This document shows positions 23,032 to 51,207 of a stretch of DNA of 64,000 nt, piece after piece (position 1 is the stretch's first letter; each line of letters opens with the position of its first letter). The translations under genes were made by a program, and so were the position numbers. The DNA comes from Coleophoma eucalyptorum (taxonomy: Eukaryota; Ascomycota; Leotiomycetes; Helotiales; Dermateaceae), in the NCBI GenBank assembly GCA_026120035.1, contig JALRME010000047.1:124001-188000 (forward strand), read 5' to 3'. The notes under the pieces were generated by a model. It had not been told where the DNA came from and did no database searches. It saw nothing but the letters and a program-made list of their open reading frames with translations.

Positions 23032-24788
23032 ACAGAAGAACAGAATTGCATGAGCTATCTACTCAGCTATCTTTCTTTTTAACAAGAGAAAGTGACAATC
23101 CATTTTCTTGAACTAAATAAGGTTGTGTTTAAGCAATGTCTAATACCAGATGACATTGCAACAAATCACTCAAGATTTTGACAATCGTGCCGTTTAAAAA
23201 CCACCGCTTAAATGTAAAAAAGGAAGCCATGCGGCAGGCATGATCAGAAAATTGGTCCCTATCATCGATATTCATTTAACTTGGCTGACAATTGTGGTTT
23301 CTTGAAGTCGCTGGGTATAGGAGTTATTGGTAGACTTAGGATAATAGTTACATCCATACTTTACAGAGATATACAAAATAGATCACATGTAACCTTCGAA
23401 TCTACTCTCTTGGGCAATATCCAGGGTGCCTAGATAGATCTAGAGGTTCGCGAAGATGGTTTATAACATGGGAAATGATGTAGTAGAATCTGTCGTCTAT
23501 GATAGCGCAAAAGAGGACTCGAAATGTTTAGTTAAAGTTATTGGCGGCCTCAATCGGATTTTGGAAGAATTAATCGATTGCAGAAAAGTATTTACAAGTC
23601 GAAGCTCATTATTAAAGTAAGCTATGGGCTTTGTATAATCCTAGTTAGAAAAGGTAAAAGTATACACAAGCCAGCGAGCTTGGTACAGTTACTAGGAAGT
23701 TACTAGACACTCTTTGTCCCTAACTAGTTTCAAAACCCAAAACAATACATGTAACTAAGAATAGAAACATGAAGCCTCCGATGTACAAAGTCTGAATCAC
23801 TATATTTCTAGTGTCACAGATCATAGTAAGAACTAAGGCAAACAGAAAGTGTAAGAAGTTCATAGTTACTGGGACATATAATATAGACTGCTTTTAGATT
23901 AGCCGTTGTGCTGCAATCAGTATCTTGTGTTTCTTAAGGAACACTCTGGTTCAATCTATAGTCTTGATTGAGTCTGCTGGTTCGTAAATACGAGGGCTAC
24001 ACTTATTACCATATAATTAGTGCAAAACTCATAATGATACAAGATATACATTGAAACCTTAGAATATATATGACCGAAGGGAAGCTACGTAATTAGAAAG
24101 ATCACGACCCATACAGTCAAACGGGGCTCTACCTGCATCCAACTGCTCGCAATTTTCTGTCTATAGCGAGTCTGTATATAGTGATCATGGAACCTAGATG
24201 TCTGCCATTAAGGTTTGTTCGGACTAAGCGGGTGGGTTTGAAAAGGTTGAAGGCAAACTTTTACCTCGGTTGGCCGAATGATGCGAAGCCCTTTGCGGCC
24301 CAAATTTATAATTTATTCGCGTAGCTGCCCATCACACCCATATACTGTATATAATTTTAATTGGCAGAAGTCCTTGAAAGCCGAGTCTTACGTTAGTCTT
24401 GGAAGACCTTGGAAGATGGCCTGTAAACCCTGCATTGTTGTCGGCTGTACGTAGGGCAATACGAGGCACCTTCCAATGGCAATGGCCTTTTCCTTGCGAT
24501 TACATTGTGGATAGTGGGGATAGATGGTTGTAATATTTTAGCCAAGTCCACGGAGAAAGTTTTTATAGACCATCTAACACGGTTCGTCACTTTGGCTGTT
24601 CCGAAGACCGAAGGCTACTATTGATTACCCCGCTATCTTTAAACCATACTGCTACTCTCTTAATTCAGAATCCATTTTGGCTCTGAGCTAGCTGGTGATT
24701 TAAATCTCGATATCTACTTTCTAAAGACTGGGTGCAGACGCCCGTCTGAGATTCAAATCTTTACTTCAGAATCAACCAGATTTTTAAA
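23032..24788. other. 1.76 kb AT-rich gene-free stretch
   Basis: Only stop-rich frames are present. It serves as the 3' flank of the methyltransferase and the promoter of the LDI-like gene. No repeat longer than about 15 bp was noticed. Confidence 0.4.
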
Positions 24789-26591
24789 ATGGGATCCACT
24801 AAAGAAAAAACGCTCAAGCAGTATGAGCTGAAGCTCGACCTGTCACAATATGCTACCTTAGATGCCCAACAAGTCGGTCATATCCGTCACTTTTATAACC
24901 TCGTCTCGCAAGCAGACGGATCATGGCACCACATGGGCAGCATGGAACCCATGCAAGAATTCAACGATGCATATCGCTATCAGCTTGCAACTATGGCTTA
25001 TGCTATGTCGGTGGCTCACTTTCATCGACAGCCAGCCCTTCGAAGTGTTTACAAGTCCCTGCTCCGTCGTATCATTCATAAGATGCTCTGTCGTGACGTT
25101 TGGGGCTACTGGTTTTTGACGAGTCACTCTGGCTCCTTGACCGAGCCAGACCGGACAGAACTGCGCAAGCCTTGGGCAGATCCGGTTGTGCGCGAAAACA
25201 TCATGTATAGTGGCCACTTGTTACTTATGACTAGCCTGTACGGCATGCTCTTTGATGATGACGAGTTTGAGAAGCCCGACTCTATTGTGTTCCGGTGGAC
25301 ACCTTTATTTTGGGGCTTCGGCCCTGAAATATTTTCCTATGATAACCGGAGCCTTCAAAAAGCCATCCTTGAAGAGATGGAGCGGAACAACTGGGTTGGT
25401 GTATGCTGTGAGCCGAACCTAGTGTTTGTAGTTTGCAATCAATTCCCGGTGATGCCCAATTCTTCCTCTGTATTAGACCGAAACTATGGCTAACTAAAGT
25501 TTAAGATCATTGCTATGCGCTATAATGATATTCGTGACGGCACTAATGTTGTAGAAGGAGTGCTTGACAAGTACATGAAAGCATGGGACAAAGCTGGAAT
25601 GGTCCAACCAGGTGGCTTGTTCGCAGACTGGCTCATGGTTAAGCAACAGAAGATCATTCCTCCAGTGAATATTCCGCACGGATCACTCCCACCAAGAGAC
25701 ATTGGTTTTACTGCTTGGTATGTTCCAAATGATGGTCTACAAAAGGTTTGCGTGAATAGATAAGCTAACGAAATGCTTAGGGCAGGAGCATATATGCATG
25801 CGTGGAATTCTGAGCTCATAGAATCGAAATATGAAGAGCAGGCGCTCGGTTACGTTACGAAGATCAATGGACAATATAGAATCCGCCCAGCACCAGTGGC
25901 AAATGCTTTCCGAGCTCTAGTCAAGTTCCAAGGTAGTGCGACTGAGTCAGAAAAGACTCTGAAGCAAGCTGTTGAAGATTCAAGAAAGCTACCTCGCTCT
26001 AGAATTCCATTTCATGCGCCAACATACGGTATTGTTTGTCAATGGCTATCAGAATTAGGGAAGAGAGAGGAACTTGGCGATGTTCTTGATTATGCCGATA
26101 AGCACCTTAACCCTACGTGGGAAAAAGGCGGGCTTTTCTACCCGAGACAGGATGAGCAGAACCCTGATTCTGCGGACATGAACTACATGGAGCCGTTTTC
26201 TGGGAATTCCGGTATTGCTTACGGCAGATTGAATGTCCCTAACGGACAAAAGATTATGTGGGAACAACCGTGGACTGGGCAGACTCTGTTATCTCGGCCC
26301 TGGATTGATGGAGTTACACTGGAGAATGAAGTTGACTATTTGCGAGGCTACTGGGATGATTCTAAAAACGCACTTATTCTTACAGCAAAAACCTGGGATG
26401 GAAGTAAGACGATCCTAAAGCCACATGCTCAAAACTTGAGCTCAGGGGAGTGGTACGTTTACGTTGATCATGAGTTTAAAGAATCTAAAGTCGTTGATGA
26501 TAAAGGCTCTTTCCAAACGGAGGTTACTATTACTGGCACACCAACAGATATTGTATTTATCAAGAGTAACAGTCTTAGAGACGAAGCATAG
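24789..26591 (+). CDS. Linalool dehydratase/isomerase-like protein
   Basis: Three exons (24789-25448, 25506-25717, 25781-26591) encode 560 residues. The bacterial linalool dehydratase-isomerase is near 400, so this has a fungal-type C-terminal extension. Recognisable alpha/alpha-barrel segments are RHFYNLVSQADGSWHHMG, WGYWFLTSHSGSL, ENIMYSGHLLLMTSLYGMLFDDDEFE, CEPNLVFVVCNQFP|IIAMRY (restored by intron 1), DIGFTAW|AGAYMHAW (restored by intron 2) and MNYMEPFSGNSGIAYGRL. The founding enzyme dehydrates tertiary allylic alcohols and isomerises them. Fungal relatives occur in metabolite clusters with mostly unknown reactions. No signal peptide is seen. It sits tail-to-tail with a Zn2Cys6 regulator. 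Family membership is a by-eye judgement and the reaction is not predicted. Confidence 0.75.
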
Positions 26592-30813: not shown

Positions 30814-32409
30814 ATGGCGAACCCAATCTCTACTGGAATGAATATCGAACTTGAATCTATGCCTGATATCACCAAGATGGAAGACTCGAAGCATAAAATC
30901 CTTGGAGAAGAGGTGACTGACTCGGATAATATTAGAGAAGATATCCCAAGAGAGAATGCGGTAGACGCTCTCCAAAGGTGGTATACGCCTCGCATCAATA
31001 TGTGGAGAGTCTTCGCCACATTCTGGTCATTCTTCGTGGTCGGCATGAATGACGGTTCCTACGGTGTAAGTTTTCGATAGGTAGATTTAAGTCGAGAATC
31101 AGCATTGACATAGAAACAGATATTAATCGTATATGTATGCAGCTATTCTCTTCCTTTTCCCCCAACCATTGTTCAGCCTTTCTAATATTTCGCAGCTCGA
31201 GAGTTATTATGATCTCAATTACACTGTCGTGTCTTTAATCTTCCTCTCTCCTTTTGCTGGCTATTCTGCTGCAGCTTTAGTCAATAATATTGTGCATGTC
31301 AAACTTGGCCAGCGGGGAGTGGCATGCTTAGGACCGCTGTGCCATCTTGTCTCGTATATTGTCATCGCAAATCATCCTCCGTATCCCGTTTTGGTGGTCA
31401 TGTTTACCTTTATTGGGTTCGGCACTGGCCTCATTGATGCGGCCTGGTCTGCGTGGATTGCGAATATGGCCAACGGTAATGAAGTTTCGGGTTTCTTACA
31501 TGCTTGTTACTCCTTGGGTGCAACCGTTGCTCCTCTCATAGGTTCTGCAATGGTTGACAAGGGTAAATATCCCTGGTATTACTATTACTATATCATGGTA
31601 TGTGCATCCAGAGACATTTAGGGGCAATTCTCATCGATAGTAGATTGCAATTGCTTCACTGGAACTTATTACGTCATCATTGACCTTCTGGAAGCAGACA
31701 GGCTCTGTATATCAGAAAGAAAACCCCATGGAGGGACATAGCCAATCTGGACGAAGTCGAGAGGCATTGAAGAATAAAATAACTTGGATATTTGCAATTT
31801 TTGTTTTCGGATATATGGGAGTTGAAGGTAGGGCCTCATGTCGATTGGATTTAATTATATTACTAACGCGCCGTAGTTTCTCTAGGTGGTTGGATTGTCA
31901 CGTTCATGACTAAAGTCCGAGGCGCCTCATTTTTCGAGTCTAGTATATCTTCTACAGGCTTCTGGGCTGGGATGACAGTTGGTCGTATTGCCCTTTCCTT
32001 CTTAACAGCAAGGTTGGGGGAATTTAATTCAGTACTGCTTTATCTCAGCATTGGCGCCGGGCTCCAGATCATATTTTGGCTTGTTCCCAATTTTATAGTG
32101 TCTGCAGTAGCAGTTGCATTCTTGGGAATGCTCTTGGGGCCGTTGTTTGGTTCATCAATGGTATATATCACGAAACTGATGCCGAGACATCTTCATATAG
32201 GAAGTGTTGGTTTTGCTGTCGCTATTGGTGGTTCTGGAGGAGCTATATTTCCTTTCATAGTTGGAGCAATTGCGCAGGCAAAGGGGGTGCGGAGCTTACA
32301 ACCAGTAATCTTAGCTTTATTGGCATCGATGGGAGGACTATGGCTTCTATTACCTAGAAAGGGCCGAAAGGAACATAATGAGGTTTCTAGTTCAGATGTC
32401 ACAGTTTAG
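30814..32409 (+). CDS. MFS transporter, BSC6-like
   Basis: Five exons (30814-31065, 31120-31134, 31196-31597, 31644-31827, 31877-32409) encode 461 residues. Exon 2 is a 15-nt microexon supplying I-L-I-V-Y, which bridges GMNDGSYG and LESYYDLNYTVVS as in relatives where TM1 reads YG(A)LIPYL. Twelve hydrophobic segments are evident. Typical stretches are FLSPFAGYSAAALVNN, GFGTGLIDAAWSAWIANM, GFLHACYSLGATVAPLI, YMGVEVSLGGWIVTFM (restored by intron 4) and SVGFAVAIGGSGGAIFP. Such proteins are plasma-membrane carriers of unknown substrates. Position between tailoring enzymes suggests product export (inference). Confidence 0.87.
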
Positions 32410-35113: not shown

Positions 35114-36299
35114 ATGCCACTGTTGAAGGCGGCAGTGGCTTTCTGGCTTCTGAGCGGTACCCTGGCTGAGTCTGTTTACTGGCCGCCCGTATACAACAAT
35201 GTCACCTCCAACGTGGAGATCCTATCGGCTCCAAGCAACCTCGATGGCTTCAAGATGAATGCATCCGCTAAAATCGGTGGAGCGTTTGACTTTTGGTATT
35301 TTGATGTGGTTTCTGAAACAACCAACGCCGGTGTAAACATCGTTTTTTTCAACACTGGTGACTTTGCCGCGCAAGGCAACACACAACCACTAGCTGTTCA
35401 ACTTACTGGAAAATTCGATAACGGCACCGAATTTAATGTGCAAACCTATGCTACCGAAGGTGCTTATGTTAAAAACGACGAATGCGGTGTTGCTGGTGAG
35501 TGGATGGGTTCTGGTGCTAGCTTTACGGGTTCGAATTTACACGCACCAAATGTCACATACCAAATCACCTATGATGGAACAGCTGGGGGCGTTGAGGGAA
35601 CAATCACTTTTCACGCTGTGAGTTACATCTGAGTGGCTTTTAACATTCCGCGCAATTCTTGCTAATTGTCATTCAACACAGAGAGCACCTGCCCATTTTC
35701 CATGCAATACTAAGGACGTTGCTGGTGCCACCGAGAATCTTCTCCCTTACCTATTTTGGGCTAACGCTGTCCCTGATGCCGATGCAACTGTTAACCTTAC
35801 TATTAATGGTACCCCTTTGAAAATTACCGATGGCGTTGGATACCACGATAAAAACTGGGGCCAGAAGTCGGTTATCACTAGCCCCAAGTATTGGGACTGG
35901 GGCCATGCACGTGTTGGACCTTATTCAATTGTCTGGTATGACCTTGTTGACTACAACAACAGCGAACACAACTACGCATACATTGCCAAGGATGGTGAGG
36001 CAATGTTTGTTGGCTGTGGTGGGACTACGGTCACAGCCCGCCGATGGGGAAACCAGACTTACTCTCATCCGCCCACTGCCCCAACGACCGGACTTTTAGA
36101 AAACAAAGGATTGATCCTAACATATGAAACCGGCAACGAGAGACTAGTCTTTAACGTTACGACAACTCGAATAATTCGTACTGAAACGGGAAGCGTCTAC
36201 TCACGCGCTGTTGGCGATGTCTCTGGTGGAGTCGTAGGCGAGGAGAGCTATGAAGGCAGGGGTTTCTACGAGGAGTTCATCTATGGCGTTTTAGAGTAG
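35114..36299 (+). CDS. Secreted lipocalin/CrtC-type protein of the fungal Diels-Alderase family
   Basis: Two exons (35114-35617, 35682-36299) encode 373 residues. The first ~19 residues form a signal peptide (MPLLKAAVAFWLLSGTLAES). The mature part is beta-rich with several N-glycosylation sequons. The family signature is GYHDKNWGQ followed by WDWGHARVGPYSIVWYD, seen in the hydroxyneurosporene-synthase-like (CrtC) two-domain lipocalin fold. Fungal members include enzymes of pericyclic or hetero-Diels-Alder steps in polyketide, terpenoid and alkaloid clusters, and others with isomerase roles. The reaction here is unknown. It neighbours the RTA1-like and UstYa-type genes. A secretory signal agrees with acting on a secreted or vesicular peptide or intermediate (inference). 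Confidence 0.8.
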
Positions 36300-36987: not shown

Positions 36988-38167
36988 TCAGTCTCTAAGA
37001 TCAGTAATAAAAGCCCCATTTGGGGGTTTTATCACGCCCTCTGTATCACTCCGCAGGACTCCGTTCTCATGTACGAACTGTCTAATTGCATTATAGTCGC
37101 TGCATGTGTGCATGCGTGCCATATCGCCTGCCAACTTCCCTTTTGAACCGTACCACATAAAAGGCACTACAACGACAAGTTAGGGATAACATCTAGAAAT
37201 AAATAAGAGATATTATGGATTTAAGATATTTCTAGAGAAGGAGCCCCCTGAACTGATCATTTCCCTACTCATGACAGTCTGGGAAATGGGAACAATTGCT
37301 ACTAGGAGTTACGTACCGACGCCTAGATCAGCGGTGCATGCGACACGGTTGCGAAGTATTTCAAGACAATGATCTGCGAACAAACATTTAGTTTTACTGC
37401 ATTGTGTGACAGTCAATTAGACCAAAGAAAGAAAAGAAATCAATGAATAGGAAGCCTACCAACATGTTGAATTCTCCAACTCTCTAGTTCAGGAGGTTCA
37501 CAATTTGGCGGGTGGCAGTTCTCTCGTGTATGCTCAATGTTGTAGTATAGATTCCTTCGAACCATGTTGATGCAGTGCATCTCATGAATCGCCTCGGGAA
37601 GAACAGGATAACCTTCCACGCCAAGGTCGGGCCTGTCAATGTATGCGTGCCGGGCAGGATCAATGTCTGCTTTCTCGGCATCCTCTCTTGGTATCATGAT
37701 AAAGCCATCCTCTGTGAATTTCAGTTAGCATCTGGCTTTGATGCAACAGCAGTAATATGGAACTCACTTGATCCATCATACCACTTCCATTTATCATCAG
37801 CCTCGTCTGAGTTATGCTCTCTAAAAAAACTATTTTCCGGAGGATACCAGCTCACGTTGATAAACGTAGGTGTAGGTGTCCTTACTAAACTGGCAAATGT
37901 CGGAGGAACACCTCCTGGTGGTTGATTGACGGGTTGTAAATATCGTTGTTTAGTGGCCTGTGTAAAAATAATAATAAAGATGGCGATTGAGTTGGAGATG
38001 CTGAGCACAATGATTGCTGCTACAGAGAATGGATTATTTCTCACATAGTCCCTCCAGTTTCTCGATCTTTTACGCCAAGCGTGCAGTGGAACAGAAAATC
38101 CGGATTCAGACAGCTGCTCCTTCGGAAGGAGTTCCTCGCTATCCTGTTCAGATGAATCTCTCATCAT
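36988..38167 (-). CDS. UstYa-type oxidase (DUF3328), RiPP cyclisation enzyme candidate
   Basis: Four exons (38167-37768, 37711-37460, 37373-37317, 37166-36988) encode 295 residues. A cytosolic N-terminus of about 45 residues precedes one membrane anchor (FSVAAIIVLSISNSIAIFIIIF), leaving a lumenal domain. Two HxxHC motifs define the family: HEMHC (176-180), and HVDHC (216-220) assembled by intron 2. The C-terminus has ADLGVVPFMWYGS joined by intron 3, and HTCSDYNAIRQF, the usual H-x-C-R/S-x-Y/F ending. UstYa/UstYb-like proteins oxidatively cyclise dikaritin core peptides such as those of ustiloxins, and occur in other cyclopeptide and toxin clusters. It is divergent from a second UstYa-type gene and 3 kb from a repeat precursor. 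The 150-nt third intron is longer than its neighbours. Confidence 0.9.
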
Positions 38168-38644: not shown

Positions 38645-39379
38645 ATGAAGCCTGCAACGGATGCCTACGACAAGGTCGAATATAGTGGCCTAGACATGCG
38701 GCCGGTGCGCGTGAAGCACTGGAATCTGCTGTCTTTTACTACGGGCCTTGCAACGAGCATCATCCTAGGTGCTATCGCATTGTCCATTTACGGCAGAATT
38801 TCTGCCCCAAAGACAGCAGCAGAAATTGAGGCCGAAGAATGGAACTATTGTGGACGTTCTAGCGCCTCGGCCATGGAACGAGGATGTGTTATGGAACCTA
38901 TGTTTTACGGTTGGATGCCGCCTCAGTGCGTGTATCAAGAGCTAACAACCACTCTGCCAATTTTTGAGGACCGACAGTATTATGTGTAATGAATATCCAA
39001 GCTGCATTCAAAAAGCCCACAAGCTCACGATAATATAGTGATGTGAACCTGACGCAGCCGATACTGCAAGAGCAGCTTTGGGCTGGCGAGTATAACGTCA
39101 TTTTCACGGACCGGTAAGTAGATATATTTCTGTATTTCTTCCGATTATGATAGTTCTGACGCTAAATATAGTTACCATGATGAGCATTGCTTGTTCCAGT
39201 GGAGGAAGTTGCATTATGCTGTCCATCATGGAATGGAGTTCATTGATAACAAGACAATCAGCATTGGACACTCAAAACATTGTGCAGATGAGCTTTCCCG
39301 GAGCTGCGAGATAGCGAATGGCCCTCGTGCCAACTATGTTGAGCTTGGCTTCTATCGCTGCCGCAAGACAATTTGGTAA
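38645..39379 (+). CDS. Short UstYa-like (DUF3328-related) membrane protein
   Basis: Three exons (38645-38985, 39039-39113, 39172-39379) encode 207 residues. An N-terminal cytosolic segment is followed by one membrane anchor (LLSFTTGLATSIILGAIALSIYG). The lumenal part contains MFYGWMPPQCVYQELT, then YHDEHCLFQWRKL (HxxHC at 141-145, joined by intron 2) and GHSKHCADEL (HxxHC at 172-176). Two HxxHC motifs are the hallmark of UstYa-type oxidases, though this protein is shorter and its motifs are closer together than usual. It pairs divergently with the 295-residue UstYa-type gene, as paired UstYa/UstYb genes do in dikaritin clusters. Its catalytic competence is inferred. Confidence 0.82.
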
Positions 39380-41001: not shown

Positions 41002-42029
41002 ATGAAGATCACTATGCTGCTTACTATGCTCACGGCGACGAGCTTTGCCGCTCCGCTTGCAGAGCCTAATCCAAAGGCTGGTATGTTCTACGATTTATAA
41101 TCAAGTATAGAACGAACATTAATAAAAATGTAGTCGAAAGTCTTAAGGAGACGCGTGGTTTTGATGGGAGTAAGTCTATATATTTTGCCCTTAGAGGTAC
41201 AAAGTTAATCTCAACAAGTTTATATCGGCGCTGGTGCAGAGGGGGAGACTTCGGAAGAGAAAAAGCGTAACTTTGATGGGAGTAAGTCCATGTTATTTTC
41301 TCGTTAGGGATATAAAGTTAATGGTAGCTAGTTTACGTAGTTGCTGGCGAAGAAGGTGAGAGTGCCGAGAAAAAGAAGCGTAGCTTTGATGGGAGTAAGT
41401 CTATGTCCTTCTCTTATAAAATAAAAGATTAATAGTATATAGTTTATGTGCTTCCTGGTGTAGAGGGAGAAAGTTCTGAGAAGAAGCGTAGCTTTGATGG
41501 GAGTAAGTCTATGTCCTTCTCTTATAAAATAAAAGATTAACAGTGAACAGTTTATGTGCTTCCTGGTGTAGAGGGAGAAAGTTCTGAGAAGAAGCGTAGC
41601 TTTGATGGGAGTAAGTCTATGTCCTTCTCTTATAAAATAAAAGATTAATNNNNNNNNNNNNNNNNNNNNNNNNNNNNNNNNNNNNNNNNNNNNNNNNNNN
41701 NNNNNNNNNNNNNNNNNNNNNNNNNNNNNNNNNNNNNNNNNNNNNNAATAGTATATAGTTTATGTGCTTCCTGGTGTAGAGGGAGATAGTTCTGAAAAGA
41801 AGCGTAGCTTTGATGGGAGTAAGTCTATGTCCATCTCTTTTAAAAAAAAATAAAAGATTAATAGTTTATAGTTTATGTGCTTCCTGGTATAGAGGGAGAT
41901 AGTTCTGAGAAAAAGAAGCGTAGCTTCGATGGGAGTAAGTTTTCTTTTCCCTTAACAAGATAAAAAAATTAATAGTACCTAGTCTACGTACTTCCTGGTG
42001 TTGAGGGAGATAGTTCTGAAAGCAAGTAG
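41002..42029 (+). CDS. Secreted Kex2-processed repeat precursor (dikaritin-like RiPP), one exon per repeat
   Basis: Exon 1 (41002-41080) encodes a 26-residue signal region (MKITMLLTMLTATSFA, then APLAEPNPKA). It is followed by exons 41134-41169, 41219-41281, 41332-41394, 41443-41502, 41551-41610, 41759-41818, 41872-41934 and 41983-42029. Every intron is phase 1 (donor GTAAGT, except GTATGT in the first; acceptors mostly TAG). Each middle exon is 60 or 63 nt and encodes the end of one core, an acidic spacer, a KKR or KKKR Kex2 site and the start of the next core. Across splices the invariant motif is x-F-D-G-I-Y-[VI], with x being G, N or S. Later copies continue LPG then V/I-EG-E/D-SSE. The last copy ends S-E-S-K-stop without a KR. 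The visible exons total 176 residues, but the N run at 41650-41746 hides an unknown number of units. With the two UstYa-type genes this is a cyclic-peptide precursor candidate; the product is unknown. Confidence 0.87.
41134..42029 (+). repeat. Tandem exon+intron repeat array (~108 bp unit)
   Basis: Successive units (exon 60-63 nt plus intron about 48-53 nt) are arranged head to tail. Introns 4, 5 and 6 are nearly identical, starting gtaagtctatgtccttctct, so whole exon-intron units were duplicated recently. The two earliest units are the most diverged, in both exon (AGAEGETSEE and AGEEGESAEK versus PGVEGESSE) and intron. This gradient fits growth by unequal crossing-over from the middle of the array. 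Confidence 0.88.
41650..41746. other. Assembly gap (97 N) inside the repeat array
   Basis: The gap begins 39 nt into an intron copy and ends 12 nt before the intron's acceptor. The two sides together make a complete intron, with a 3-nt overlap. The simplest reading is that one or more whole 108-bp units were collapsed; the number of units is unknown. Confidence 0.9.
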
Positions 42030-43303: not shown

Positions 43304-44899
43304 TTAGGCCTCATACACAATCTCTCCTTCAAACCACGTAGTTACAACGCTTGCCCCGTCAAATTCTCCTTTGCTCAAATCCTTGTTCACTGCAATAAAG
43401 TTCGCCTTCTTCCCAACTTCTATGCTGCCGAAATCCTTCTCCTTTCCTACTGCCTCCGCTCCAGCTAGTGTTAGCATCCTACAAATCTTCTCTCCCCCAA
43501 CTGCCTTGTCTCCATTACCGACTGCTGCAACAATTCCATTCATAAAAGGCAGCAAGTCCGGCGTACTGCCTGCCCCCCAATCACTCCCAATTGTATTATG
43601 TGCACCCACGGTCAACATTTTAGGGAAATTCCAGTTCATTAGTCCCCCGCTTACCTCAGTAACAGGGTGCGCGAAAAAGAAAGCGGGCGACATCTCAGCT
43701 GTTACATTTAGCTCTTTGAATCGGCGATATTCGTCATCGTGAACTCCACTGCAGTGAGCGATTTCGTGTCGGGGTCCATTAGGATTCGTCTTGCGCGCTT
43801 CTTCAAATGCATTGAGTGCGAGACGTGTGCTACCTTGACCTGTACAATGGATCTTCATTGTCATGCCTAGGGCGTCATACTTCTGTACCGCATCTTTTAC
43901 ATTCAGGATAAAGAGCTTCGACTCGTCAGCTGTACCATCTTCTTGGAGACCCGCGTGTGAGAAATATGGTGGGAGGGGAACACCATCGAGGATTATTTTC
44001 ACAAAGCGGGTGTCCACGTGGTTTGACTTGTAGGTAGCTGCTTCGTCAAGCAGGGTGTGCAGCGTTGAGCTGTTTTCCCCGCCAATCCAATCCGGAGCGT
44101 ACACGATATGTGTGTGCATATTGATTTTCAAGGCACCTTCGGCGTCCAACTCGCGGAGAGATTGAAGCATAAGAGTGTTTGCGGATGCTTCCTGACAACT
44201 CGTTACGCCGGCGCGGTGGAGCATATGTTGGGCTTCCTTGAGGACTCGCTTGCAATGGGCAAGGTTTGGGTGTGGCAGCGTGGTGAGGACCTTGCTCATG
44301 CTCATCTCAGCCATTTCACCGGTTAAATGGCCGTTTTCGTCTCGTCGGTAGACGCTGCCTTGGGTGTCAGCCTCGGAAGTAATGTCGTATCCTGAGCGTC
44401 TTAGGGCCTCGCTGTTAAGATAAACGTTATGGCCAGCACCGCCACGAATCACGACCGGAACATCTGGATAGTCCTTGTCAAGGGACTCACGAGCAAAGTT
44501 TTCAATCATGAAAGTATGGCCCACGACCCAGTCCTCGTTTGCATGAGCATACTTGCATAGACAACCACATTTATTCAGCTCTTCAACCACATTGGATGAG
44601 CTCAGTCCCTCCATTGGTAGTTGAATTTGAGATGTTAATGACACCGCGGAGAGCAGCATGTGGACATGGGCATCGTGGATGCCAGGCATAATAAATTGGC
44701 CCCTAAGATCGTAGATCAGAAGATGGTGTTGCTTTGCTTTCGCTTCAATCTCTGCCGTGGTGCCGATGGCAGCGATTATGCCATCTGGAGCCACGATAAA
44801 TGCTTCAGCCCATGGCGCTTGGTAGTTGATCGTATATACCCGTCCATTAGTATAGGCAACCCCGTTGCTCAGTGACGTTGACGATACGGTGGATGTCAT
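43304..44899 (-). CDS. Metal-dependent amidohydrolase, YtcJ/AepA-like
   Basis: A single-exon gene of 531 residues. The order of amidohydrolase-superfamily landmarks is clear: an N-terminal beta-sandwich segment (NGRVYTIN, APDGIIAAIG), PGIHDAHVHM with the HxH metal ligands (78 and 80), a central barrel with QEASANTLML, MKIHCTGQGSTR and EIAHCSGVHDDE supplying later His ligands, GSDWG with the metal-binding Asp, and a closing sandwich segment DFGSIEVGKKANFIAVNKDL. YtcJ-like enzymes hydrolyse amides, imidates or N-acyl compounds in the cytosol; substrates are mostly unknown. It lies just beyond the repeat precursor and could be the cluster border or an unrelated catabolic gene. Confidence 0.9.
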   Translation of the reverse strand: MTSTVSSTSLSNGVAYTNGRVYTINYQAPWAEAFIVAPDGIIAAIGTTAEIEAKAKQHHLLIYDLRGQFIMPGIHDAHVHMLLSAVSLTSQIQLPMEGLSSSNVVEELNKCGCLCKYAHANEDWVVGHTFMIENFARESLDKDYPDVPVVIRGGAGHNVYLNSEALRRSGYDITSEADTQGSVYRRDENGHLTGEMAEMSMSKVLTTLPHPNLAHCKRVLKEAQHMLHRAGVTSCQEASANTLMLQSLRELDAEGALKINMHTHIVYAPDWIGGENSSTLHTLLDEAATYKSNHVDTRFVKIILDGVPLPPYFSHAGLQEDGTADESKLFILNVKDAVQKYDALGMTMKIHCTGQGSTRLALNAFEEARKTNPNGPRHEIAHCSGVHDDEYRRFKELNVTAEMSPAFFFAHPVTEVSGGLMNWNFPKMLTVGAHNTIGSDWGAGSTPDLLPFMNGIVAAVGNGDKAVGGEKICRMLTLAGAEAVGKEKDFGSIEVGKKANFIAVNKDLSKGEFDGASVVTTWFEGEIVYEA

Positions 44900-49659: not shown

Positions 49660-51207
49660 TTATGCCAATTCTACTTCAATCAGACTCTCAGTCCCCCTCT
49701 CATAAGTATATATCTCAACAATTTTTAAACCTGCCTTCTCTATCAACTTTCTCCAGGAATCCTCAGTTCTTTCCATTGAAGCAAAAGCACTCAACATCAT
49801 GATATCGAGCCCGGTTGTAGTATAGTGCGCATTATGGGCTGGAATTACATTTTCGTTGATTAGAATTTTACTATATCCTTTTTTGAGTGCTGGCTTAAGA
49901 TTTTCAAGAATATCAAGGCACTTGGACTCCGGCCAGTCATGAAGAATAGAGTGGAGGTAATATGCTCTAGCCCCTGCAGAGTTCGTTAGCTTTTATCAGA
50001 AGAAAGAGATCTCTTTCTATGAAGAAAGGTGCAAAACTACCTTGGATGGGTTGCTCTGTAAAGAAATCGTGTGCCATTTTCTCAATCTTTTCAGGTAAAT
50101 CTTTCGCGGCCGCGATCACAGTTGGTGTGTCTTGTAAGACCAGTCTACCTGCAAGACCGCAATGTTGCTTGTAGAACTCCACAACATCGTGACCAATTCC
50201 GCCACCAACATCTACCAGTAGTATTGCTTCTGGATCCTTACTTAGCCCAAAGCCAAGATTTTCCTCGACTGGGTAACAGCCCTTATCCATCCAGCGTGCT
50301 CGTGACATACTGTATCCTGCCATGTGATTATTGAACTTATCTAGTAGTCCTGGTGTACTAGCAAACAACTCAAACGCGTGGAGTGTAGTATTGTGGCCGG
50401 CTTGCATTGGGGAATTCATGGGGTCGGTACAGTTTCTATATTTAGTGTCCGAAAGAAACTTCGGAAGGGAAATATAGATCCCTGAAAATGCACCTTCTCT
50501 GTTTTGTGTTAGTAATCCAACATGAGATAGTATCCAAGTACATCGCCAAGATAAATAAAAAAGAACGTCTCATAATATATCCTACTATGGTCCAAATATA
50601 TTTTTAGGTTAAGATTTACAGAAGTAAATACTTACACAAATGGAATCCCGCTACTGTAGACTGGATTCAGCATGGATTTTGAGAGTCTGGTGTGAGCATA
50701 AACATCTGGACTGATTTCACTGATGAATGACATTGCGGAAAGATGTTTAAGGATGCGACCTAAGTGGTGTATTAGTAAGAACTATCATAAATCGAAACTG
50801 TATCTCAAGTTATTCAACTTTACCTAACAGGATCGGATCTGAGCCTGTCATCTCAGCCAACTCTTGACAGCTCTTTGGGTCACCATTATTCTCATTCATT
50901 TTGAGAAATAGTTCCAAATTCATTGCAGTACAAATAAGAGGCATGAGTGGCTTCTACGTACAATTAGATAATTTAACGAATGAGTATAGAATGTAAGTGC
51001 ACTTACTTCAGCCCACCCCATCCTCAAAATTGCTTCCATTGGAGTTTCCAGTGCAAGGAATAGAGAACGAGTGGTCTCAGCGAGATCCTTGCGAGATTTC
51101 GAGTTTTTCAGGTCTAAACTCAAACCCTTAATAAGAACCTGCTTGAGAAGAGGTAATACCTCATCCTTGGTAGGGTAGAGAGAGTCAAAATTTTGACTAA
51201 TATCCAT
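49660..51207 (-). CDS. O-methyltransferase, COMT-like (class I SAM-dependent)
   Basis: Five exons (51207-51007, 50953-50824, 50759-50636, 50498-50041, 49973-49660) encode 408 residues, the standard size for fungal plant-type O-methyltransferases. The N-terminal helical dimerisation domain includes CQELAEMTGSDPILLGRILKHLSAM. SAM motif I is LLVDVGGGIGH (about 246-255), followed by [38 protein letters not shown] (joined by intron 4, with the general-base His before D-W near 316), KILINENVIP and TGLDIMMLSAFASMERTE. It methylates a hydroxyl of an aromatic or polyketide-like acceptor. It is divergent from a Zn2Cys6 regulator at 51.9 kb, a pair that could form a small biosynthetic unit. Confidence 0.9.

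Follow-up and report, generated by a model that had tools for sequence, protein, structure and literature searches.

A probably spliced multi-core repeat-protein gene beside UstYa-type genes in Coleophoma eucalyptorum, encoding the probable precursor of a dikaritin-like RiPP

Does a row of short, intron-separated repeats in Coleophoma eucalyptorum encode the precursor of a modified peptide, a source of plain secreted peptides, or something that merely resembles a gene? The row lies in a stretch of 64,000 nucleotides, referred to here as the window, to which coordinates refer unless a contig or locus is named. Dikaritins are RiPPs that derive from Kex2-processed repeat proteins and are cyclised by UstYa homologues, as set out in PMC10512285. 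The initial annotation of this DNA took the array for a RiPP precursor of the Kex2 type, spliced and with several cores, next to genes of the UstYa type. That reading is supported by homologues, selection, a PF11807 neighbour and apparent linkage. It is very probable that the array encodes a Kex2-processed repeat protein that acts as the precursor of a dikaritin-like RiPP.

Exon-intron architecture of the repeat gene

The gene occupies the plus strand from an ATG at 41002 to a stop codon that ends at 42029, exactly the coordinates first proposed. Nine exons are visible, joined throughout by GT-AG junctions in phase 1, and the longest is 79 nt, the maximum that had been claimed for the array.

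41002..41080, plus strand: exon 1, 79 nt, the longest; signal-peptide-like leader MKITMLLTMLTATSFAAPLAEPNPKA
41134..41169, plus strand: exon 2, VESLKETR-GFDG; first half-core, with a non-canonical KETR site
41219..41281, plus strand: exon 3, IYIGAGAEGETSEEKKR-NFDG
41332..41394, plus strand: exon 4, IYVVAGEEGESAEKKKR-SFDG
41443..41502, plus strand: exon 5, IYVLPGVEGESSEKKR-SFDG
41551..41610, plus strand: exon 6, IYVLPGVEGESSEKKR-SFDG
41650..41746: run of 97 N within the array, left unfilled
41759..41818, plus strand: exon after the N run, IYVLPGVEGDSSEKKR-SFDG
41872..41934, plus strand: penultimate exon, IYVLPGIEGDSSEKKKR-SFDG
41983..42029, plus strand: last exon, IYVLPGVEGDSSESK-stop

The donor is GTAAGT in seven of the eight visible cases and GTATGT in intron 1, and each visible acceptor ends in AG. 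Introns after the first cut the core between the Gly and Ile codons (GGG-A|GTAAGT ... AG|TT-TAY or TC-TAC), and this FDG|IY split is found in all visible cores. The joined exons give MKITMLLTMLTATSFAAPLAEPNPKAVESLKETR-GFDGIYIGAGAEGETSEEKKR-NFDGIYVVAGEEGESAEKKKR-SFDGIYVLPGVEGESSEKKR-SFDGIYVLPGVEGESSEKKR-SFDG on the 5' side of the N run and IYVLPGVEGDSSEKKR-SFDGIYVLPGIEGDSSEKKKR-SFDGIYVLPGVEGDSSESK-stop on the 3' side. Because the two sides were translated independently, the visible halves, seven FDG and seven IY, make up six whole cores, with one FDG half and one IY half at the gap. The span from donor to donor across this gap (41611 to 41819, 208 nt) suggests that about one further repeat unit is hidden in it.

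The repeats conform to the consensus [GNS]-FDGIY-xxxG-x-EG[ED]-[ST][SA]-E. Recurrent KKR/KKKR sites had been described, and six sites of this type do precede cores, whereas the first core follows KETR instead. The leader reaches its highest 11-residue mean hydropathy (1.70) at residues 3-13 and continues into SFA-AP, a putative site of signal cleavage.

Counts of the repeat signature are concentrated at this locus. A basic pair-x-FDG-x-GTRAGT pattern has six plus-strand matches in the window, all within the array, and none on the minus strand, and a 25-nt cassette, with up to three mismatches allowed, hits seven places in the genome (45.3 Mb), none of them outside this array, with zero for the reversed control. 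GTAAGT appears seven times in the 1.06 kb of the array, the maximum in other 1,060-base stretches of the window being two on the plus and three on the minus strand. A genome search with a 120-residue precursor query (E <= 1) returned six matches, from this locus alone. The six full repeat exons measure 60 or 63 nt; the six inter-repeat introns, a set that omits intron 1 and the intron meeting the N run, measure 48, 49, 50 or 53 nt, and five of the six hold an in-frame stop. Across the six full exons, variable sites at codon positions 1, 2 and 3 number 6, 4 and 12 of 21. With exon 2 and the partial last exon omitted, dN is below dS in all 14 non-identical pairs, the fifteenth pair being identical; for exons 3 and 4, dN is 0.14 and dS 2.05. 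As judged from these comparisons, the repeat exons change as coding DNA does, under purifying selection, in a pattern that fits a spliced and translated array. Given the consensus splice sites, this selection and the homologues described below, the array is taken as a genuine gene with predicted splicing.

Neighbouring HxxHC genes and the wider surroundings

The HxxHC motif is a mark of the UstYa family, and two genes that encode it lie upstream of the array.

36988..38167, minus strand: UstYa gene, 295 aa, HEMHC and HVDHC; exons 38167-37768, 37711-37460, 37373-37317, 37166-36988
38645..39379, plus strand: second HxxHC gene, 207 aa, HDEHC and HSKHC; exons 38645-38985, 39039-39113, 39172-39379

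Two UstYa-type genes had been announced within 4 kb. The first bears this out with a full-length match to PF11807 (132.1 bits, covering 3-220 of 220 profile positions) and stands 2.8 kb from the precursor start, a UstYa neighbour as expected for a dikaritin; the second, in contrast, falls outside Pfam UstYa and matches its profile weakly. An earlier model of the first gene that ended early in the last exon was dropped, another acceptor giving a full canonical C-terminus, and the PF11807 score rose from 100.5 bits in the shorter model to 132.1 bits. The shorter model was the one used in the NCBIfam, PDB sequence and hhalign comparisons: NCBIfam returned zero matches for either enzyme, and the PDB sequence search a single match (E 0.071), taken as chance. 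The whole genome holds 47 PF11807 matches in 27 groups, so clusters with UstYa genes, for RiPPs or for other products, may be numerous.

The second HxxHC protein had no match in a Pfam scan. An N-terminal helix is predicted at residues 24-52 (model mean pLDDT 88.5, pTM 0.72), and a Foldseek comparison of the model with the PDB gave nothing below E 3.8 and was uninformative. When 23 proteins of its family were compared with PF11807, one matched (E 0.03), and hhalign against the UstYa profile places both HxxHC motifs in register (35% probability, E 0.0004). The protein is best described as a probable divergent UstYa-like protein, outside Pfam UstYa and weakly related to it by profile. Its homologues listed at E <= 0.001 number 60, none with a precomputed Pfam domain, and the names shown are hypothetical or uncharacterised. 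Within the genome, the family has 14 loci (16 matches, the three exons in the window counted once), of which eight have a PF11807 match within 5 kb and six have none. Such zones make up 0.66% of the genome (binomial 1e-14; with the window left out, seven of 13 loci and 9e-13), both values being too small because neighbouring loci (two pairs, C7 and C16) are not independent.

The closest genomic paralogue of the second HxxHC gene (43%; locus L055, 8474-9193, minus strand) stands about 0.9 kb from another repeat gene on the same strand, with PF11807 matches also beside it.

L055 7113-7576, contig C7, minus strand: second repeat precursor, leader MKFFFHTVSAALVATVLASPIAI..., repeats KR-DPEFSNYGEYSVTAKS

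This precursor is composed of contiguous 54-nt repeats, with one visible intron behind the leader and no visible one between repeats. The genome thus supplies its own comparison for the intron layout, and a further precursor with a member of the HxxHC family beside it. The KR-DPEFSNYGEYSVTAKS array also contains a 98-nt N run, which suggests that both runs may be ordinary assembly gaps in tandem repeats. A scan for basic-site arrays in 52 loci (overlaps included, with partial flanks at most UstYa loci) recovered only the precursor on C7, in three overlapping loci, and two row sets in L042, which lie on opposite strands and were judged unrelated. L042 (contig C13, 347500-357300) holds basic-pair arrays that give CPSV/CPSL in one reading and VPI in another, and has a weak PF11807 match nearby (25.6 bits).

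Tyrosinase is present in the ustiloxin and phomopsin clusters. Among the 18 other ORF pieces of the window scanned with Pfam, none was a tyrosinase, a peptidase or a P450. Pieces of an O-methyltransferase are found 7.6 kb off (49663-49992, 53.1 bits; 49970-50569, 17.4 bits and below the cut-off), an MFS piece (31127-31618) lies 9.4 kb from the precursor, and a proprotein-convertase P domain is encoded in the genome.

Other genes were observed in the window. Beginning 1.3 kb beyond the end of the precursor gene, an amidohydrolase (PF07969, 165.5 bits) occupies 43307-44899 of the minus strand, and upstream of the UstYa gene, at 35114-36296, lies a protein with a Diels-Alderase N-terminal and AsqO C-terminal-like region. 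At 24750-26591, two ORFs match Pfam Ldi (linalool dehydratase/isomerase) with 283.6 and 74.3 bits and are probably one gene cut by an intron, and 8335-9117 matches a terpene synthase C-terminal domain (PF19086, 35.8 bits).

Homologous precursors and class membership

A search for related arrays had been proposed at the outset, and they are found in other fungi, including Xylaria and Nemania. Two search rounds gave six proteins at E <= 1.5e-9, the profile round scoring 7,991 candidates that shared most words. P0001 consists of three KR-NFDGIYVVGGEEGESAE repeats followed by a diverged GFDLSMLKYSDTRR end. P0002 from Xylaria scruposa and P0003 from Nemania abortiva are annotated proteins with the variants FIGIY, FDGIY, FLGPALY and FVGTY and an EGE[TV]-like stretch after them; one Xylaria repeat, FLGPALY, breaks the F-x-G-x-Y spacing. 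P0004-P0006 are short ORF calls from short contigs. The end of P0005 reads NFDG-SK..., as expected from read-through of a GGG-A|GTAAG donor, and P0004 and P0006 start with a stretch ending ...ILVYV, as expected from read-through of an intron ending AG|TTTAYGT; FDGIY is unbroken in the remaining repeats of all three. From these protein ends, the intron position seems to be shared and the count of intron-bearing repeats seems variable. The window gene is the sole member in which an intron is visible in every visible core, the homologues having been compared as proteins. No Pfam match exceeds the cut-off for the precursor piece or for P0001-P0003. Matches to OCC1, Catalase_C and Kelch_1 for these were below it and were judged composition effects; P0004 bears a precomputed Kelch label.

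For four of the six, the precursor homologue and a homologue of the second HxxHC protein come from contigs of equal size (P0001/P0028, 593,788 bases; P0002/P0009, 644,296; P0003/P0010, 88,121; P0006/P0040, 5,213). For the remaining two precursor homologues, whose contigs measure 1,177 and 1,060 bases, the matches listed include no such partner. The two genes therefore appear linked, the linkage being read off equal contig sizes rather than contig names.

The gene shares with the dikaritins (UstA, PhomA, AprA) a signal-peptide-like leader, repeated cores between basic Kex2-type sites, a Tyr in each core and a UstYa/DUF3328 gene nearby. By the definition given in PMC10512285, it would work like a dikaritin precursor, with a putative cyclised product. 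The same source counts at least 838 precursor types in this very diverse class, so a new core is by itself expected. FDGIY had been reported as unfamiliar among dikaritin cores, and literature searches likewise gave no such core, the one match to FDGIY in the open-licence literature searched concerning Acinetobacter antigens by its title. The F-D-G-I-Y-[VI] core differs from the EDYXI of ustiloxins and phomopsins (as given in PMC6339444) and from FYYTGY (as given in PMC6514808). Also unlike dikaritins are the intron inside each visible core and the absence of a tyrosinase from the 18 scanned ORF pieces. A five-gene definition includes a tyrosinase, a methyltransferase, and a transporter or peptidase in the cluster (in the accessible text of PMC12048977), and the asperipin-2a cluster is described as four genes only (PMC6514808).

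Epichloecyclins (GigA) offer a further comparison, with a multi-core Kex2-type precursor, an internal Tyr and a UstYa-like gene clustered with gigA, according to PMC8982410. Their cross-link, as described in PMC9233826, connects the Ile at the N-terminus with an internal Tyr, whereas in the present core Tyr directly follows Ile, and this Ile would therefore not give the epichloecyclin ring. Kex2-processed repeat proteins (KEPs) similarly combine a leader with repeats between basic sites, and here dibasic-separated repeats are present, with KETR in place of a KKR/KKKR-type site at the first core. In one usage, that of PMC7099791, the term KEP is reserved for unmodified peptides.

An intron that interrupts all visible cores is less to be expected, as is an HxxHC family that lies outside Pfam and is apparently linked to the precursor. 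It is unusual for each repeat to have its own symmetric, in-frame exon, and in the KR-DPEFSNYGEYSVTAKS precursor of the same genome the repeats are contiguous. The words intron and exon are absent from the main texts of two KEP surveys, and in a third paper, as far as its accessible text extends, introns occur only in a cDNA method. Among published cases, as available in part, the Paracoccidioides pheromone gene has a single intron, and repeat proteins of mycorrhizal fungi have one or two introns near the signal sequence. No description of an intron-per-core layout or of the apparently linked HxxHC family was found in the open-licence literature searched, supplements aside. Published mining for the class starts from annotated proteins, signal peptides, repeated motifs or known precursors (PMC12048977 and PMC7099791, in the parts available), and mining for contiguous repeat ORFs would miss this precursor because no exon exceeds 79 nt.

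Proposed processing and competing explanations

The spliced precursor would enter the secretory pathway, where Kex2 cleavage after the KKR/KKKR sites would free peptides of the SFDGIYVLPGVEGESSE-KKR kind, which would then lose the basic tail and presumably also the acidic EGxSSE follower. Since the acidic EG[ED]xxE stretch looks like a follower and the F-x-G-x-Y element, placed directly behind the basic site or close to it, varies least, the product would come from the N-terminal part of the unit, which the UstYa protein and its divergent HxxHC partner may oxidise. Given this constancy of F-x-G-x-Y across the family, the likeliest outcome would be a link between the phenol of Tyr and a carbon in another side chain of F-D-G-I-Y. 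Phe would most simply provide that carbon, a guess by analogy with asperipin-2a, whose Tyr side chains are ether-linked to beta-carbons (as reported in PMC6514808). The gene itself may have expanded as an exon-intron unit, its intron interrupting the codons of the core, was duplicated in tandem, which would account for the symmetry (phase 1-1) of the full repeat exons.

Were the array instead to yield linear, unmodified secreted peptides, such as a pheromone-like signal or an effector, the HxxHC genes would act elsewhere. Umemura 2020, in its accessible text, finds a DUF3328 neighbour in 22% of Kex2-processed repeat proteins, so that many of these are presumably unmodified. Yet a PF11807 gene stands 2.8 kb away, the second HxxHC gene is apparently linked to the precursor for four of six homologues, and Tyr is present in every visible core, a residue that the same study finds more often in repeats with DUF3328 neighbours (65.6% against 38.2%); this explanation is distinctly improbable. 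Far less probable still is that the array is a decaying or non-expressed tandem repeat that merely resembles a gene. The N run and the weak KETR site at the first core would suit decay, but consensus donors and AG acceptors are retained at all visible units, the exons are under purifying selection with indels in threes only, and homologues occur in named species. The precursor of a dikaritin-like RiPP is accordingly preferred to both.

A further proposal would add to the RiPP reading rather than replace it, namely that the core introns are functional and that how many cores a precursor has depends on exon skipping or intron retention. The symmetry of the full repeat exons means that single skips keep the frame and leave FDG|IY cores intact, and the in-frame stops in five of six introns point the same way. 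However, P0001 and P0004-P0006 have uninterrupted FDGIY in at least some repeats, and should these be ORF calls made without splicing, the family does not require an intron in each core; copying of an exon-intron unit, moreover, accounts for the pattern without any function. A regulatory role for the introns is unlikely. Equally unlikely, taken as a whole, is an exon-per-core RiPP precursor in which splicing sets product dosage, together with unnamed UstYa-like HxxHC enzymes that travel with the precursor. If it were true, alternative splicing could give precursors that differ in the number of intact cores. For the dikaritin-like precursor itself, the F-x-G-x-Y core would represent a testable new substrate type for UstYa-type chemistry, and the apparently linked HxxHC family may serve as a bait for similar clusters.
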